NCBI GenBank assembly: GCA_903824785.1
Contig: CAIJYD010000050.1
Location: 1-50,746, forward strand
Origin: an uncultured Bacteroidota bacterium
GTDB taxonomy: Bacteria; Bacteroidota; Bacteroidia; Bacteroidales; VadinHA17
Length of the DNA stretch: 50,746 bases
Reading direction: 5' to 3'
Of the stretch, positions 3,091 to 48,066 are shown piece by piece. The stretch's first letter is position 1; every line of letters begins with the position of its first letter. The notes beneath the pieces are model-generated. The model did no database searches, was not told the DNA's origin, and was given only the letters and a program-made list of their open reading frames with translations. Both the position numbers and the translations under genes were made by a program.

Positions 3091-3198
3091 TTATCGTTTC
3101 CGGCATCCGGTTACTCTGAAAACCTGCTTTAAAAAATGGCTTTAAAACAAAAGTCTGCCGTGGAATTTTAGTGTGGATAATATTTTCAAATATTTTTA

Positions 3199-38029: not shown

Positions 38030-39367
38030 ATGAACGTGGATAAAATTATGAACAACCTCGAGAAGAAGCATCCCGGAGAGGTTGAGTATTTACAGGCAGT
38101 CAGAGAAGTCCTGGAATCAATTGAAGAGGTTTACAATGAGAACCCCCAGTTTGAATCTGCCAACATTATTGAGCGCATTATTGAACCTGATCGCGTCCTG
38201 ACTTTTAAAATCCCCTGGGTTGATGACGAAGGAAATGTAAAAGTGAACCTGGGCTACAGGGTTCAGTTCAATAATGCTATCGGACCGTATAAAGGAGGCC
38301 TTCGCTTCCACCCGAGTGTGAATCTTTCAATCCTGAAGTTTCTTGGTTTTGAGCAGATCTTCAAGAACGCCCTTACAACACTTCCAATGGGCGGTGGAAA
38401 AGGCGGTTCAGACTTTGATCCCAAAGGAAAATCGAATGCAGAAGTAATGCGTTTCTGCCAGGCATTTATGCTTGAACTATGGAAGTACATCGGACCTGAA
38501 ACTGATGTTCCAGCAGGGGATATAGGTGTTGGCGGCCGTGAAATTGGCTTTTTGTATGGTATGTATAAAAGGCTTTCAGGTGACCATACAGGAGTTCTGA
38601 CCGGAAAAGGAAGTAACTGGGGAGGATCGCTGGTTCGCCCTGAGGCTACAGGATATGGCTGCGTCTATTTTGCAAAAGAGATGCTTGCAACCCGCGGAGA
38701 ATCATTCCAGGGTAAAAGAGTAGCAATAAGCGGATTCGGAAACGTTGCATGGGGTGCTGCACTAAAGGTTACAGAACTGGGTGGAAAAGTTGTCACCATT
38801 TCAGGACCCGACGGCTATGTTTATGATGAGGAGGGAATTTCAGGAAAGAAAATTGAGTTTATGCTGGAACTTCGTGCCTCAAATGAAGATATTGTAAAGC
38901 CTTATTCCTATGCATTTGAAGGAGTAGAATTTCATGAAGGGAAACGTCCGTGGGAGGTCAAAGTAGATATCGCTCTGCCTTGTGCAACACAAAATGAGTT
39001 AAGCGGAGAAGATGCCGGGAAACTTATTAATAATGGCTGCATCTGTATCTGTGAAGGGGCAAACATGCCAAGCACTCCGGAAGCCATTGAGATCATTCAT
39101 AAAAACGGGATCCTTTTTGCACCCGGAAAAGCATCAAATGCGGGCGGTGTAGCAACATCAGGTCTTGAGATGACTCAGAACTCAATGAAACTCCGCTGGA
39201 GCAGCAAAGAGGTTGACGACCGGCTTCATGACATAATGTGCAATATTCATCTTCAGTGTGTTAAGCATGGAAAAAGGGATGATGGTTATGTGGATTATGT
39301 TAAAGGTGCAAATATTGCAGGATTCCTTAAAGTTGCGAGCTCGATGCTTGATATGGGAGTGATATAG
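38030..39367 (+). CDS. gdhB: Hexameric glutamate dehydrogenase, probable NAD type
   Basis: The 445-residue enzyme interconverts glutamate and 2-oxoglutarate plus ammonia. [15 protein letters not shown] holds the catalytic lysine region and [15 protein letters not shown] the catalytic Asp. The nucleotide-binding turn reads FGNVAWGAAL with ISGPDGYVYD at 257-266. This is close to the NAD-specific enzyme of Clostridium symbiosum (LSGPDGYIYD) and unlike the S-D-S-x-G turn of NADP enzymes. I therefore predict NAD(H) preference; the gene symbol follows the NADH enzyme GdhB of Bacteroides fragilis by analogy. A strong terminator follows. Confidence 0.85.
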   Translation: MNVDKIMNNLEKKHPGEVEYLQAVREVLESIEEVYNENPQFESANIIERIIEPDRVLTFKIPWVDDEGNVKVNLGYRVQFNNAIGPYKGGLRFHPSVNLSILKFLGFEQIFKNALTTLPMGGGKGGSDFDPKGKSNAEVMRFCQAFMLELWKYIGPETDVPAGDIGVGGREIGFLYGMYKRLSGDHTGVLTGKGSNWGGSLVRPEATGYGCVYFAKEMLATRGESFQGKRVAISGFGNVAWGAALKVTELGGKVVTISGPDGYVYDEEGISGKKIEFMLELRASNEDIVKPYSYAFEGVEFHEGKRPWEVKVDIALPCATQNELSGEDAGKLINNGCICICEGANMPSTPEAIEIIHKNGILFAPGKASNAGGVATSGLEMTQNSMKLRWSSKEVDDRLHDIMCNIHLQCVKHGKRDDGYVDYVKGANIAGFLKVASSMLDMGVI

Positions 39368-40567: not shown

Positions 40568-42101
<1,534 letters not shown>

Positions 42102-42102
<1 letters not shown>

Positions 42103-43979: not shown

Positions 43980-44067
43980 GGAGAGATGCAGGAGTGGTTT
44001 AACTGGCACGCCTGGAAAGCGTGTGTACCTCAAAAGGGTACCGGGGGTTCGAATCCCTTTCTCTCCG
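43980..44067 (+). tRNA. tRNA-Ser(GGA)
   Basis: The acceptor arms GGAGAGA and TCTCTCC pair fully, with discriminator G. The anticodon arm is CACGC-CTGGAAA-GCGTG with anticodon GGA at 44014-44016. A long variable arm (GTACC / GGTAC) marks a serine tRNA, and the T arm carries GGTTCGAATCCC. CA follows the discriminator base in the genome. An intrinsic terminator and a tyrosine integrase gene follow, so this tRNA is the probable integration target of the islet. Confidence 0.95.
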
Positions 44068-44091
44068 CAAAGTCGAGTTACAAATTTATGC

Positions 44092-44126: not shown

Positions 44127-44297
44127 CGTTTTGCACCCTGTCATCTATATGCAAGGTTTGTCATATAGTTCGGGGTCAATTCGGTGGAGATAAAATCCAC
44201 GTCCCAAAGTCCACCTATGTTACTTTTTGCATTGATATTCATGTATTTGCATATTTTTTGTGAATAACATTAGGTTTAACTTTATATAAAAATTAGT
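44127..44297. other. Region between tRNA terminator and integrase
   Basis: I see no gene. It contains a short hairpin (GTGGA / TCCAC), a repeated GTCAT-CTATATG / GTCATATAG motif and very AT-rich DNA before the integrase. These could be arm-type sites of the integrase, but no direct evidence exists. TAACTTTA at 44277-44284 resembles a -7 box. Confidence 0.3.
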
Positions 44298-45524
44298 ATG
44301 AAAAACTCGACATTTTCAATCTGCTTCTTTATCAAGAAAAGTAAGCTGCTCAAAAACGGTAATGCCCCGCTATTCATGAGAATCACGATAAATGGAAGGC
44401 GGTGGGAAACTTCAGCTCAGGTAGGTGTTGATCCTGACAAATGGGATTCAAAAAAAGAGAGAGCCAGAGGCAGTGACAGAAACTCATATCTGGTTAATGA
44501 GACTATTGACAATGCCAGGCACAAAGTGCAGAATATCAAACTAAAAATGAACCAGGAAGAGAAACCGCTTACACTAGCAAGTATACAATACGGGGTCACA
44601 GACAGGCAAAGAGTTGAAAGAACTATCATGAAATTATTTGATGAGCACAATAAAAACTGTGTAAGAAAAATCGGTATACAAATGGCACAGGCTACCTATG
44701 AACGATACATTATTTGCTACAAGCATTTCAAGGAGTTTCTCTTATTTGAATATAAGGTTGATGATCTTCCGGTTTGCGATATTAATAAAGATGTCTATGA
44801 AAAATTTGAACTGTACTTAAGAACGGAAAAGAAGTGTGCTAATAACACAACAATCAAGTATATAAGAAACTTCAATAAAATAGTAAGGATTGCTATTGAA
44901 AAAGGTTGGATAATAAAAAGTCCATATAAAGAAGTCGGATTCAAATTGGAAGAGATTGACAAACCTTATCTGTCAAAAGCAGAACTTGATGCCATTAGTG
45001 AAAAGGAAATTACATTACCTAGATTAGACCTGATTTGTGATATTTTCACTTTTTGCTGTTATACTGGTCTTGCATTCTCTGATGTAAAAGAACTTACCCA
45101 AGACAACATCATAATCGGAATTGATAGTCGCACATGGATAAGTAAACACAGAAAAAAGACCAATGTGATCTCAAAAATTCCATTGTTCGCTGTTGCTAAA
45201 AAGTTAATAGAGAAGTACAAAAATAATCCGGTGTGTATTATTAAAGATGTGTTGTTTCCTGTACCAAGCAATCAGAAGATGAACGCTTACTTAAAAGAGA
45301 TTGCAGACTTATGTGGAATAACAAAGACTCTTACAACCCATACTGCAAGAAGGACATTTGCGACAACTATAATGCTTCACAATGGCGCAAGTATGGAAGC
45401 TGTAAGCAAAATGCTAGGGCACTCCAGTCTCTACATGACAAGAAAATATGCCAAAGTAGATGAATTATATATCTCACAAGAAACAAAAGGAATCGAGGAG
45501 AAACTTAAAATAGCAGTATCATGA
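44298..45524 (+). CDS. Tyrosine recombinase/integrase (IntDOT-like, Arg I missing)
   Basis: The 408-residue integrase has an N-terminal arm-binding-type domain (about 1-90, ITINGRRWETSAQVGVDPDKWD), a SAM-like core-binding domain (about 105-205) and a catalytic domain. Visible catalytic residues are a basic cluster near 283-287 (KHRKK), His348 and Arg351 in HTAR, His375 in LGHSS, and the nucleophile Tyr384 in TRKYAKV. The first arginine of the family is replaced by Ala259 (TGLAFSDVKEL); IntDOT of CTnDOT also lacks it. The gene follows tRNA-Ser by 230 bases, and its stop overlaps the ATP-grasp start (ATGA). Confidence 0.93.
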   Translation: MKNSTFSICFFIKKSKLLKNGNAPLFMRITINGRRWETSAQVGVDPDKWDSKKERARGSDRNSYLVNETIDNARHKVQNIKLKMNQEEKPLTLASIQYGVTDRQRVERTIMKLFDEHNKNCVRKIGIQMAQATYERYIICYKHFKEFLLFEYKVDDLPVCDINKDVYEKFELYLRTEKKCANNTTIKYIRNFNKIVRIAIEKGWIIKSPYKEVGFKLEEIDKPYLSKAELDAISEKEITLPRLDLICDIFTFCCYTGLAFSDVKELTQDNIIIGIDSRTWISKHRKKTNVISKIPLFAVAKKLIEKYKNNPVCIIKDVLFPVPSNQKMNAYLKEIADLCGITKTLTTHTARRTFATTIMLHNGASMEAVSKMLGHSSLYMTRKYAKVDELYISQETKGIEEKLKIAVS

Positions 45525-46660
45525 ATATCTTAGTATTAAACAGTTCCGATAAATGCTATGCCACGCAGAGCATCCTTACCGCAGGTGAGAAACATGGTCA
45601 TAAAATGATTGTCCTTGACCCTGCTTATTTTACACCACTGGTTTCAAATGTCGAGAAAGGATACGACCGGGTCTACGATCTCCTTCCTAAAGCAGCGACA
45701 CGAATAACGATGAGTGAGGTCGATGCCATTATCCCCCGGATTGGCAACAATCTAATTTACAACTCTTATATTCTCGAACACCTTACGCTTAACCTTGGTA
45801 TATACTCTATTCAAAGCGCAGCTGGTTTGCGGGCAGCTTCAAATAAATTTCATACCCTGCAAATGGTTAGCAGACATGGAATTAAGACCCCCATTACCCT
45901 GTATGTCAAAGCTGCAAACAATATTGATTTTCTGATTGAAAAAGTAGGCGGACTACCTTTTATTTTGAAATACAACTATGGCTCCCAGGGTGCTGGGGTA
46001 ATGTTGATGGAAACTAAAAAATCAGCTGTCTCTACTATTGAAGGCTTATTGAAAAATAAGGCCGATTTCATACTTCAGCAATACATCGAATCCAAAGGTC
46101 AGGACATAAGGGCTATTGTGATGGGTGATCTTGTAGTTGCTGCATACCGGCGAACAGCTCCCAAAGGCGACTTTCGCAGTAACTTGTCACTTGGTGGTAC
46201 AGGTGAGTTAGTAAACTTATCAATGGATGATCAGATAATTTGTGTGAAGGCTTCAAAGGCAATCGACATGGAGGTATCAGGAGTGGATCTCATTAAGGAT
46301 ACAAAAGGCACTACCTATCTCAACGAGATCAACAGTAACTTCGGATTCAAGGGCCAGAAGATTACGGGGATTAACATTGGGGAACACCTGATTAGATATA
46401 TCGAGAATCGAAAGATTATTGGTAATGATGCACCTACAAAAGCACCGGATCAATATTACGAACAACTGAGGACTGAAAACAAATCATTGTTCCAACAAGT
46501 ACAATTTTTCAAAGAAAACAAAAGGATTAATGAGCTTTTTGAGGCGACAAAGGGCAAGGAAATTGACTATCGGGATTTAACCGGAAGACCCGCCAAGCGA
46601 AGCATCAAGAGCAAATTTGACATTTACAAAATCATGATAGACACGTTTTTAATCAAATAA
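45521..46660 (+). CDS. RimK-type ATP-grasp ligase encoded in the mobile islet
   Basis: The 379-residue protein has the RimK pattern: an N-terminal pre-ATP-grasp domain with AIIPRIGNNLIYNSYILEHL, then the ATP-grasp core (SNKFHTLQMVSRHGIKTP, FILKYNYGSQGAGVML, FILQQYIES, DIRAIVMGDLVVAAYRR) and metal ligands in YLNEINSNFGFKG. Such enzymes ligate amino acids, often glutamate, to a carboxylate of a protein or small molecule. About 80 extra C-terminal residues form a charged helical extension not present in E. coli RimK. No rpsF or obvious acceptor gene is next to it. Its ATG overlaps the integrase stop, so both are probably translated together. Confidence 0.88.
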   Translation: MNILVLNSSDKCYATQSILTAGEKHGHKMIVLDPAYFTPLVSNVEKGYDRVYDLLPKAATRITMSEVDAIIPRIGNNLIYNSYILEHLTLNLGIYSIQSAAGLRAASNKFHTLQMVSRHGIKTPITLYVKAANNIDFLIEKVGGLPFILKYNYGSQGAGVMLMETKKSAVSTIEGLLKNKADFILQQYIESKGQDIRAIVMGDLVVAAYRRTAPKGDFRSNLSLGGTGELVNLSMDDQIICVKASKAIDMEVSGVDLIKDTKGTTYLNEINSNFGFKGQKITGINIGEHLIRYIENRKIIGNDAPTKAPDQYYEQLRTENKSLFQQVQFFKENKRINELFEATKGKEIDYRDLTGRPAKRSIKSKFDIYKIMIDTFLIK

Positions 46661-46661
46661 T

Positions 46662-46811
46662 ATGGAAGCAATCTATTCATCTATACCTGAAACCAGAAAT
46701 CCATTGAAAAAGGTTCTGATCGTTACTATTACAGTACTCCTCATTGGAACCTCATTCTGGTATTTAACTCGGAAAAACAAAAGAAAAAATGAAAGTCGCA
46801 ATTTACGTTAG
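46662..46811 (+). CDS. 49-residue single-span membrane peptide
   Basis: The ATG lies one base after the ATP-grasp stop. The peptide has a polar N-terminus (MEAIYSSIPETRNPLKK), one hydrophobic span (about 18-35, VLIVTITVLLIGTSFWYL) and a strongly basic tail (TRKNKRKNESRNLR). It overlaps the start of the serine recombinase by 23 bases in another frame. Tight packing between two real genes and the clear span suggest that it is translated. The function is unknown: it could be an acceptor of the ATP-grasp enzyme or a small toxin-like peptide. Confidence 0.55.
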   Translation: MEAIYSSIPETRNPLKKVLIVTITVLLIGTSFWYLTRKNKRKNESRNLR

Positions 46812-47352
46812 GGTCTCTACGCAAGATCAGACAGTTGAGAATCAGATTCTTCGTCTAACTGAATTTGCAAATTCAAAAGGGTGGGAATATGAGGTCTTTT
46901 CTGAGGTCATGAGTACCCGGAAAACGAGGCCGGTAAAACAGGAATTATTGGCAAAACTCCGGAAACATCAATTTGATGCTGTGGTAGTTTTTAAACTAGA
47001 CCGTTGGGCAAGAAGTAGTACTGAATTAATACTCGACACAAAAGAACTTATTGACAAAGGTGTAGGTTTTATAAGTGTGTCGGACAATCTCGACTTTAAC
47101 ACTGCTGCTGGTAAATTGCACTTCCAGATTCTTTCAGCTTTCGCTGAATTTGAGCGCAGTTTAATTTCTGAAAGGACGAAAGAAGGCATTTACAGAGCCA
47201 GAAACAATGGTAAAATACTTGGCAGACCAGTGGGTGCAAAGGACAAACCAAGGCGTAGGCGTAGCGGTTATTTACTTCGTATGGCTGGAGAAAGACAGAA
47301 GGCTGATCAGGCAAAAGGACAACATAAAGCCCTTGATGAATATATACGGTAG
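46789..47352 (+). CDS. Small serine recombinase (resolvase/invertase family)
   Basis: The 187-residue protein has a full resolvase catalytic domain: YVRVSTQDQ with the nucleophile Ser10, VFKLDRWARSS with conserved arginines, and SAFAEFERSLISERTKEG with the E helix. A short basic tail (GRPVGAKDKPRRRRSGY) replaces a full helix-turn-helix domain, as in other short Bacteroidota recombinases. It could resolve or invert DNA of the islet. A 12-bp tandem repeat starts within its last two codons and may be its target or a remnant. Confidence 0.9.
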   Translation: MKVAIYVRVSTQDQTVENQILRLTEFANSKGWEYEVFSEVMSTRKTRPVKQELLAKLRKHQFDAVVVFKLDRWARSSTELILDTKELIDKGVGFISVSDNLDFNTAAGKLHFQILSAFAEFERSLISERTKEGIYRARNNGKILGRPVGAKDKPRRRRSGYLLRMAGERQKADQAKGQHKALDEYIR

Positions 47353-47429
47353 AAAGTACGGTAAATGGTACGGTTAAAAGAACGGTAGAAAGTACGGTTA
47401 AATGTACGGCAGATGGAACGGTAACTTAT
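47346..47429 (+). repeat. 12-bp tandem repeat array (seven units)
   Basis: ACGGT (once ACGGC) begins at 47346, 47358, 47370, 47382, 47394, 47406 and 47418, exactly every 12 bases, with unit consensus ACGGTNRAWRGW. Units 1 and 4 are identical. In one frame the array reads as Thr-Val-x-x tetrapeptides, but that frame is closed upstream by a stop at 47337 and has no start codon. The array begins at the end of the recombinase gene. Confidence 0.85.
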
Positions 47430-47458
47430 GTAACTCAACATTCATTAAGTACTTGATT

Positions 47459-47950
47459 ATGAAAATTATATTAAAAATTCCAAACGATAAACGGAACGGT
47501 AAACAGAACGCTAAGAAGTGCGCTTATTGTGACGGTAATTTTTATGCTATAAGAGATACTGCAATATACTGTTCCGATAGCTGTAAGAAACAGTTCAATC
47601 TGGAGAAAAATAAGAACCAGAAATGGTACTCTCATGATCCAAACAAAGGAATAAGATTAGCTCTTGGAACAATAACTTCTTGGGAAATGCCGGAAGACAA
47701 ATTAGTATTTTCAGGAGACCTGATGTCAATACACGCTGAATTAGTTGACTATGTATCGCCGGAGCAGCTAACAAAAGAGAAAGAATCCATTGAAATCCTT
47801 AAACCGTTTTCTGAAACTCAGGAGTTGCCGGAATCATCAATTCAGATATTTACAGACACTAATTTTATTGAAGTATTCCGGATTTCACCAGCTATTTACA
47901 AACTTTATGTCTGGCCTTGGGGTAAGGATAATGAGAAACCATATGTATAA
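47459..47950 (+). CDS. Zinc-ribbon protein of unknown function
   Basis: The 163-residue product (ATG at 47459) has one recognisable element, a Cys4 zinc-ribbon-like motif CAYC-x13-CSDSC (about 22-43) that resembles nucleic-acid-binding ribbons in Bacteroidota mobile-element proteins. The rest is not recognised. The start is uncertain: the frame opens at 47402, but that would read across the repeat array, and the ATG at 47459 has no Shine-Dalgarno. Its N-terminal codons include the second repeat block. Confidence 0.55.
   Translation: MKIILKIPNDKRNGKQNAKKCAYCDGNFYAIRDTAIYCSDSCKKQFNLEKNKNQKWYSHDPNKGIRLALGTITSWEMPEDKLVFSGDLMSIHAELVDYVSPEQLTKEKESIEILKPFSETQELPESSIQIFTDTNFIEVFRISPAIYKLYVWPWGKDNEKPYV
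47484..47536 (+). repeat. Second, degenerate 12-bp repeat block
   Basis: Related units start at 47484 (ACGATAA), 47496 (ACGGTAA), 47508 (ACGCTAA), 47520 (GCGCTTA) and 47532 (ACGGTAA), again every 12 bases. They are shifted by half a period from the first block and lie inside the first codons of the zinc-ribbon gene. Confidence 0.6.
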
Positions 47951-48066
47951 AAATAAAATATGCAGTATCTGTCGCCTTGTAACAGTTTTCAGCTTGGATG
48001 CAACCTCTTTTGAATTGTGGTTAAGTATGATATAATTATCTTTGACACACTGTAAACAATATATTT

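Follow-up and report, generated by a model that had tools for sequence, protein, structure and literature searches.

A RimK-type ligase gene lies between two recombinase genes at a tRNA-Ser

We analysed a 50,746-nucleotide stretch of DNA (the window; contig CAIJYD010000050.1) from an uncultured Bacteroidota bacterium of the VadinHA17 lineage. Downstream of a tRNA-Ser gene, it carries genes coding for a tyrosine recombinase (integrase), a RimK-type ATP-grasp ligase, a short peptide with one membrane span and a small serine recombinase, in that order. The features of the locus are listed below.

43980..44068, + strand: tRNA-Ser(GGA), presumed integration site (ARAGORN)
44298..45524, + strand: tyrosine recombinase (integrase), 408 residues (Pfam Arm-DNA-bind_5, Phage_int_SAM_5 and Phage_integrase)
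45521..46660, + strand: RimK-type ATP-grasp ligase, 379 residues (Rimk_N and RimK domains; TIGR00768; tree; residues)
46409..46657, + strand: C-terminal extension of the ligase (from about residue 297 to 379), which can be aligned across seven subclade members
46662..46811, + strand: one-span peptide, 49 residues, candidate partner of the ligase (a homologue comes right after the ligase in L004, L016, L186, L187 and the partial copy L014)
46668..46688, + strand: codons of the N-terminal peptide motif A-I-Y-S-S-I-P (six-copy alignment)
46789..47352, + strand: small serine recombinase, 187 residues (Pfam Resolvase, 137.6 bits)
47345..47514, + strand: 12-bp tandem repeats (47345-47424 and again 47483-47514; Tandem Repeats Finder, TRF)
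47459..47950, + strand: Cys-rich, zinc-ribbon-like protein on the module's far side (homologues: L004, L164 and, split over two frames, L014)

The integrase and ligase genes overlap by 4 bases (ATGA), one base separates the ligase stop from the peptide start, and the peptide and serine recombinase genes overlap by 23 bases. The original prediction had described these four genes, their overlaps, their spacing and the adjacent tRNA-Ser, and its coordinates hold base for base. Pfam, NCBIfam and PHROGs back the identities of the integrase, the ligase and the serine recombinase, while matches of the peptide are weak.

The insertion is shared within the genus and decaying

An asparaginase gene upstream of the tRNA-Ser was found in 51 of the 58 genomes of the genus. 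Thirty asparaginase loci were read, on stretches reaching at most about 1.2 kb beyond the tRNA and shorter in some. tRNA-Ser(GGA) stood beside asparaginase in 26 of them, and an integrase was present at five of these 26 sites, those of the window's own genome, G086 (species fen_982), G880, G890 and G032; the remaining 21 showed no integrase on the stretch read. The tRNA 3' end CCCTTTC was rejected as an integration scar, since genus-mates that show no integrase on the stretch covered have it too. With an integrase directly downstream of a tRNA gene and a presence that varies among relatives, the locus qualifies as a tRNA-integrated island.

Another species of the genus (fen_982, locus L004) has the four genes at this tRNA-Ser in identical order, with a ligase 71% and an integrase 67% identical to those of the window, so the arrangement goes beyond chance. 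The L004 serine recombinase frame is interrupted (138 residues), the ligase of fen_984, whose flank is matched by that of G032, stops at residue 118, and the G880 contig ends just past the integrase. A partial second copy in the window's own genome (L014) retains a ligase tail, the peptide, an intact serine recombinase and the Cys-rich gene split in two frames. The insertion is decaying in this genus, because truncated, broken, lost and partial copies are found in fen_984, fen_982, G890 and L014. Ratios of nonsynonymous to synonymous change (pN/pS) of 0.26 for the integrase, 0.21 for the ligase and 0.27 for the serine recombinase indicate purifying selection, with synonymous sites near saturation.

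The ligase belongs to a RimK clade found largely in islands

The window ligase contains both the pre-ATP-grasp and the ATP-grasp domain and passes the curated cut-off of the RimK family TIGR00768 (187.5 vs 143.4 bits). We built a first tree with 14 island-labelled rows and a second to which three rows were added and from which L008, L088 and L097 were left out; L018, L019, L062, L099 and later L188 had been labelled island members before the trees, with no integrase on the stretch read. All 14 island-labelled rows fell on one side of a branch with support 97/96, and in the second tree 17/17 island rows did so with support 97/93. A subclade of seven, consisting of the window, L004, L057 (the Tobar14m ligase, also L003), L016, L017, L186 and L187, had support 92/92, which is under the tool's star threshold.

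Single-sequence searches with the ligase at 1e-60 gave matches in two genomes out of 98 from the family and in six out of 295 from the order; at 1e-58, the one match among 395 phylum genomes was in its own. A ligase profile at 1e-70 matched 12 of 393 order genomes in 14 places. For a frame independent of likeness to the window ligase, TIGR00768 was sought in 149 order genomes. At 1e-20 it gave 23 places in 21 genomes, 17 of which exceed the family cut-off, one solely when joined with in-frame neighbours. Judged by neighbourhood and tree, eight of the 17 belong to the island clade (one of them, G170, the same as L099, on a long branch), six are rimB-rimK pairs or fusions and three are others, one likely a contamination. 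At 1e-65 the profile matched 126 of 395 class genomes, beyond the best four with no more than 250 bits; 16 matches at or below 250 bits were read and are canonical in appearance, and some island members score 241-271 bits. Because the E-value does not separate the clades, clade assignment rests on tree and neighbourhood. Assigned in this way, the window ligase is not a stray host gene and belongs to a Bacteroidia RimK clade found largely in tRNA-integrated islands.

Among 50,697 records of a phage collection, 28 had a RimK-like match, none reaching 80% query coverage. In a plasmid collection 86 records matched the ligase and four covered at least 80%; the sole match at 100% coverage was a rimB-rimK fusion of the chromosomal type, 480 residues long, and was discarded. 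No relative of the ligase emerged from IMG/VR scans, and titles and abstract openings of the open-licence PMC literature gave no report of a RimK located in an integrase island or paired with a peptide of this kind.

Catalytic residues are intact and poly-glutamate contacts are lost

The best PDB match of the ligase is 7qyr (168 bits, residues 1-296), and RimK matches in PDB and Pfam stop near residue 297, with the extension lying beyond. The extensions of the seven subclade ligases align with each other. AlphaFold, with three rows, gave a mean predicted local distance difference test score (pLDDT) of 53, residues 331-370 forming a helix-hairpin-helix (pLDDT 72-88) in an otherwise poor model.

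Active-site residues were mapped in the numbering of E. coli RimK (L108) across 14 island and 9 chromosomal rows. The catalytic, nucleotide-binding and metal-binding residues K100, K141, R189, R211, D248, E260 and N262 are all retained in the window ligase. Among the island rows, R64, K100, K141, R189, R211 and D248 are retained in 14/14, and E260 and N262 in 13/14, the exception (L062) being cut off. In Pseudomonas RimK, S14 and S68 contact the poly-glutamate chain (PMC10092738). Each is replaced or missing in 13 of the 14 island rows, with L099 as the exception, whereas chromosomal rows retain S14 in 9/9 and S68 in 7/9; the window ligase has A at the first position and N at the second. Position 8 is Arg or Lys in 0/14 island rows vs 5/9 chromosomal rows, and loss of R8 is not island-specific since Arg or Lys occurs in just these five chromosomal rows. 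With the poly-glutamate contacts gone, ribosomal protein S6 is probably not the target of the ligase. In our reading, the island ligase would be an active enzyme with another acceptor.

Alternatively, the ligase could glutamylate host S6, adjusting host translation in the island's favour, with the peptide as a regulator or a passenger; this strikes us as unlikely. S6 is the known RimK substrate (PMC10092738), the host S6 ends in KEE, and the TIGR00768 search at 1e-20 gave no second RimK in this genome. However, the window ligase scores well below the S6-ligase equivalog NF007764 (177.5 vs 331 bits), the poly-glutamate contacts are lost as described, and neither rpsF nor rimB adjoins the ligase gene. 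Moreover, three genus-mates in which this ligase had no match (G007, G018 and G040) also have an S6 ending in EE, so the ending does not track with the ligase. The window ligase is a RimK in the wide sense; its score, residues and context set it apart from S6 RimK, and it is not a graspetide enzyme.

Integrases recur beside the ligase at several tRNA genes

That the ligase stands beside an integrase beyond this genome, as first proposed, was borne out. A tyrosine recombinase lies within 0.8 kb of the ligase in 10 of 17 clade loci compared to 0 of 16 control loci comprising eight canonical RimKs and eight other ATP-grasp genes (Fisher p = 0.0003). With one row per insertion, the counts are 8/15 and 0/16 (p = 0.0008), and against seven controls only, p = 0.02. 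None of 16 further chromosomal-type RimKs has a tyrosine recombinase within 1.5 kb. The clade loci without one within 0.8 kb are L018, L019, L057, L059, L060, L062 and L099, in several of which the ligase is near a contig end; among later loci, the integrase of L186 is 5.3 kb off in the same island, and L187 and L188 have none on the stretch read. Homologues in this clade do not, then, lie mostly by rpsF or outside mobile elements, and the adjacency is not unique to this genome.

In five loci of different island types the ligase and tyrosine recombinase genes overlap or almost touch (gaps of -4, -1, -4, -1 and 28 bases), as would be expected if the ligase modified the adjoining tyrosine recombinase and thereby controlled excision. 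We consider this highly improbable, because the integrase-proximal cargo slot suffices to explain the adjacency. Gene order also varies, the two genes being convergent in three loci, and the original suggestion that a recombinase could be the ligase substrate found no backing in the ten recombinase C-termini read, which have no common motif.

Four of the related islands could be delimited by repeats: L015 (tRNA-Phe, 15 bp repeat, 7.1 kb), L063 (27 bp repeat at 93%, resembling a tRNA 3' end, 8.9 kb), L064/L165 (tRNA-Leu, 16 bp repeat, 12.3 kb) and L186 (tRNA-Asp, 19 bp repeat, 14.3 kb). On the stretches covered, no repeat of at least 13 bases was found in L004, L016, L017, L058, L060, L061, L099 or the window. 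Further sites are tRNA-Ser(CGA) in L016 and L017, tRNA-Cys in L058 and tRNA-Phe in L061. Judging from these sequences, tRNA-Ser is a common site of RimK islands and not a rule, contrary to the expectation that all four genes would co-occur there. The four-gene set is likewise not general: it was seen solely in this genus, L016 having all four genes with two extra ones intervening. Replication genes resembling DnaB, primase or VapE are present in several islands.

Two small RimK islands are candidate Bacteroidales phage satellites, coding for a small terminase (L063, 1598-2074) and a tape measure protein (L064, 5723-7768).

A one-span peptide gene directly follows the ligase gene

The predicted link between ligase and peptide is supported by a pair conserved in five genomes of four families (window, L004, L016, L186 and L187), in which a one-span peptide of 42-51 residues follows the ligase stop by 1, 1, 1, 5 and 10 bases, respectively. 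Six copies, including that of L014, have in common the N-terminal motif A/G-x-Y/F/H-S-S/N/D-I/V-P. In the fetched loci, nine duplicates being left out, we counted 2,713 distinct open reading frames of 38-56 residues, 483 with a hydrophobic span; the motif occurs within the first 14 residues in five, all of them these peptides. Since the motif was derived from the peptides themselves, the count tests specificity only, and the L014 copy was missed because its longest frame begins upstream.

A serine recombinase follows the peptide in all five genomes; it overlaps the peptide gene in the window and L187, is broken in L004, sits behind a 133-residue protein in L016 and is diverged in L186 (31.9 bits). 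Identity to the recombinase of the window is 76% in L014 and 58% in L016. Ligase, peptide and serine recombinase thus recur together in three further families (L016, L186 and L187), and genes further out differ among families while the peptide stays 1-10 bases behind the ligase. L017 and L186 have another one-span peptide just upstream of the ligase, and the L057 sequence ends at the ligase, leaving no downstream stretch. This conservation suggests that ligase and peptide work together; from the linkage we infer that the peptide may be the dedicated partner of the ligase, as substrate or as membrane dock.

The original prediction had singled out the basic C-terminal tail of the peptide, which gave way to the N-terminal motif as the conserved part. 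By the positive-inside rule, a basic C-terminus faces the cytosol, which would place the N-terminal motif outside. Because the conserved N-terminus would lie outside, docking or regulation is as likely as an acceptor role.

A proposed island remnant with a conserved cargo module

The explanation that we hold tentatively, at a little under an even chance, is that the locus is a tRNA-island remnant with a conserved cargo module made of a RimK-type ligase whose target is not S6, a dedicated one-span peptide and a small serine recombinase. The gene order, its recurrence in several families, the grouping in a single RimK clade and the intact catalytic residues were observed directly. As predicted from its family, the ligase would use ATP to attach an amino acid (probably glutamate) to a protein carboxylate, on a target that would be other than S6. 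The peptide may be its acceptor or its dock at the inner membrane; modification there could conceivably help the island, for instance when it faces a competing or helper phage. Island DNA, and not the chemistry of the ligase, is most likely what the serine recombinase serves.

Several observations weigh against such a module. The convergent orientation in L015, L058 and L061 means that ligase and integrase do not form one operon there, and of ten integrase matches in eight ligase-selected genomes, five are beside RimK and five are not. Three readable sister integrases away from RimK carry other cargo. The right end of the window's element, sought as a direct repeat of the tRNA 3' end, was not found, the contig ending at 50746. 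G890 has lost ligase and peptide, with a recombinase tail remaining ahead of the Cys-rich gene; the module is therefore dispensable there. Constraint is weakest on the peptide gene (pN/pS of 0.47, 0.60 and 0.69), and the C-terminal residues of the peptide vary among the six copies. No such peptide lies behind the ligases of the other two island subgroups, and L017, within the window's subclade, also lacks one over the 526 bases available.

Some of these points would fit a peptide that is an independent island membrane protein (for example for superinfection exclusion, or holin-like), which together with the ligase merely fills an integrase-proximal cargo slot. Unrelated cargo does occupy that slot beside sister integrases; for example, L041 has genes resembling a type I restriction set and L044 has one resembling RelA/SpoT, all named by reading the sequence. 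Furthermore, ligases occur without the peptide in two other subgroups, and the peptide has weak holin-like matches. We nevertheless judge this independence improbable, because the peptide stays 1-10 bases behind the ligase in four families despite differing outer genes and its motif was not seen in any short open reading frame away from a ligase.

At L041 (fen_982, tRNA-Ser TGA), the sister integrase (58%) is followed by a Cys-rich gene, of which the C-terminal part is present, and, further on, by the type I restriction-like large genes.

A bolder form of the module hypothesis, which we regard as unlikely, is that the subclade ligase and the YSSIP-type peptide make up a new two-part island system. 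The C-terminal extension would steer the RimK-type enzyme to add amino acids to the peptide or, via the peptide, to membrane or phage proteins, allowing the island to control its host or competing phages. If this were true, islands would have redirected RimK chemistry, known for ribosome modification, to another target, and the enzyme-peptide pair would be defined and testable. It would also provide a recognition rule among annotated S6 ligases: no S14/S68, a C-terminal extension and an A-x-Y-S-S-I-P peptide 1-10 bases downstream. Of the original interpretation as a whole, the recurrent integrase-ligase adjacency and the ligase-peptide pair stood; the tRNA-Ser rule, the C-terminal tail and the recombinase substrate did not.

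Other features of the window and related islands

The TACGGTARAAAG-like 12-bp repeats sit between the serine recombinase and the Cys-rich gene, in frame with the Cys-rich start. A decayed version of the array occurs in L014; TRF found none in L004, and no such array is present in L016. We dropped the repeats as a part of the system, the clear array being confined to the window and the decayed one to L014. A weak AT-rich inverted pair (44248-44266 and 47946-47964; 19 nt, 79%) flanks the stretch from integrase to Cys-rich gene and may be due to chance; as the sole candidate around the module, it led us to reject a DNA switch. FISUMP genes were not counted as element members because the genome has 32 matches. 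Two alike genes at 38030-39367 and 40762-42102 of the window, glutamate dehydrogenase-like by reading, have a DprA-like gene between them.

PADLOC returned no match for the peptide or the serine recombinase, and we put its ligase-AbiEi (14.2 bits) and integrase-Cas3e (10.9 bits) matches down to chance. In L004, the UvrD helicase matched 52 PADLOC models, many of them GajB. The ligase-bearing islands L016 (5760-6161) and L057 (1923-2291) have in common a protein of 122-133 residues with 30% identity and no Pfam or PHROGs match. The 133-residue L016 copy may be NDT-like; a PDB search with it gave no match. In L025 (G000:C128), 23 bases (3150-3172) repeat the 3' end of a tRNA-Ser although the tRNA itself is missing there. 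They lie behind phage-like small genes, their downstream flank resembles that of tRNA-Ser(CGA) on C135, and they have the appearance of another island's right end.

Comparison with known systems

Like phage satellites such as phage-inducible chromosomal islands (PICI) and P4-like elements, the related RimK islands of 7-14 kb lie at tRNAs with an integrase and replication genes. They differ in that packaging-type genes occur only in the relatives L063 (small terminase) and L064 (tape measure), and no helper is known for RimK islands. The window's element has no packaging, capsid-hijacking or replication gene (six proteins scanned with PHROGs for packaging).

Tailed phages of cyanobacteria, Pelagibacter and Methylophilales and the Yersinia phage YerA41 likewise carry RimK-type ligase genes. 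Their identity is 30-37%, no match spans more than 61% of the query, and the four placed in the tree fall outside the island clade. That of YerA41 (L088, 4653-6074) is a distant RimK-like gene annotated as a virion structural protein. R2K, another phage ATP-grasp clade, may modify host proteins (PMC4431377).

Microviridin-type graspetides also pair an ATP-grasp ligase gene with a short peptide bearing a conserved N-terminal motif. However, the window ligase is far under the MvdC cut-off TIGR04185 (17.5 vs 425 bits). The graspetide leader motif is given as Phhx(1,2)h in PMC8939145; by eye, the six peptides have neither this leader nor a repeated acidic/hydroxyl core, and they contain a membrane span.

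The S6 L-glutamate ligase RimK (E. coli 4iwx and 5zct; Pseudomonas 7qyr and 7qys) shares both domains and the catalytic residues with the window ligase. Unlike S6 RimK, the window ligase lacks S14, S68 and a rimB or rpsF neighbour; it has a C-terminal extension and a peptide gene behind it, and it is located in an island.

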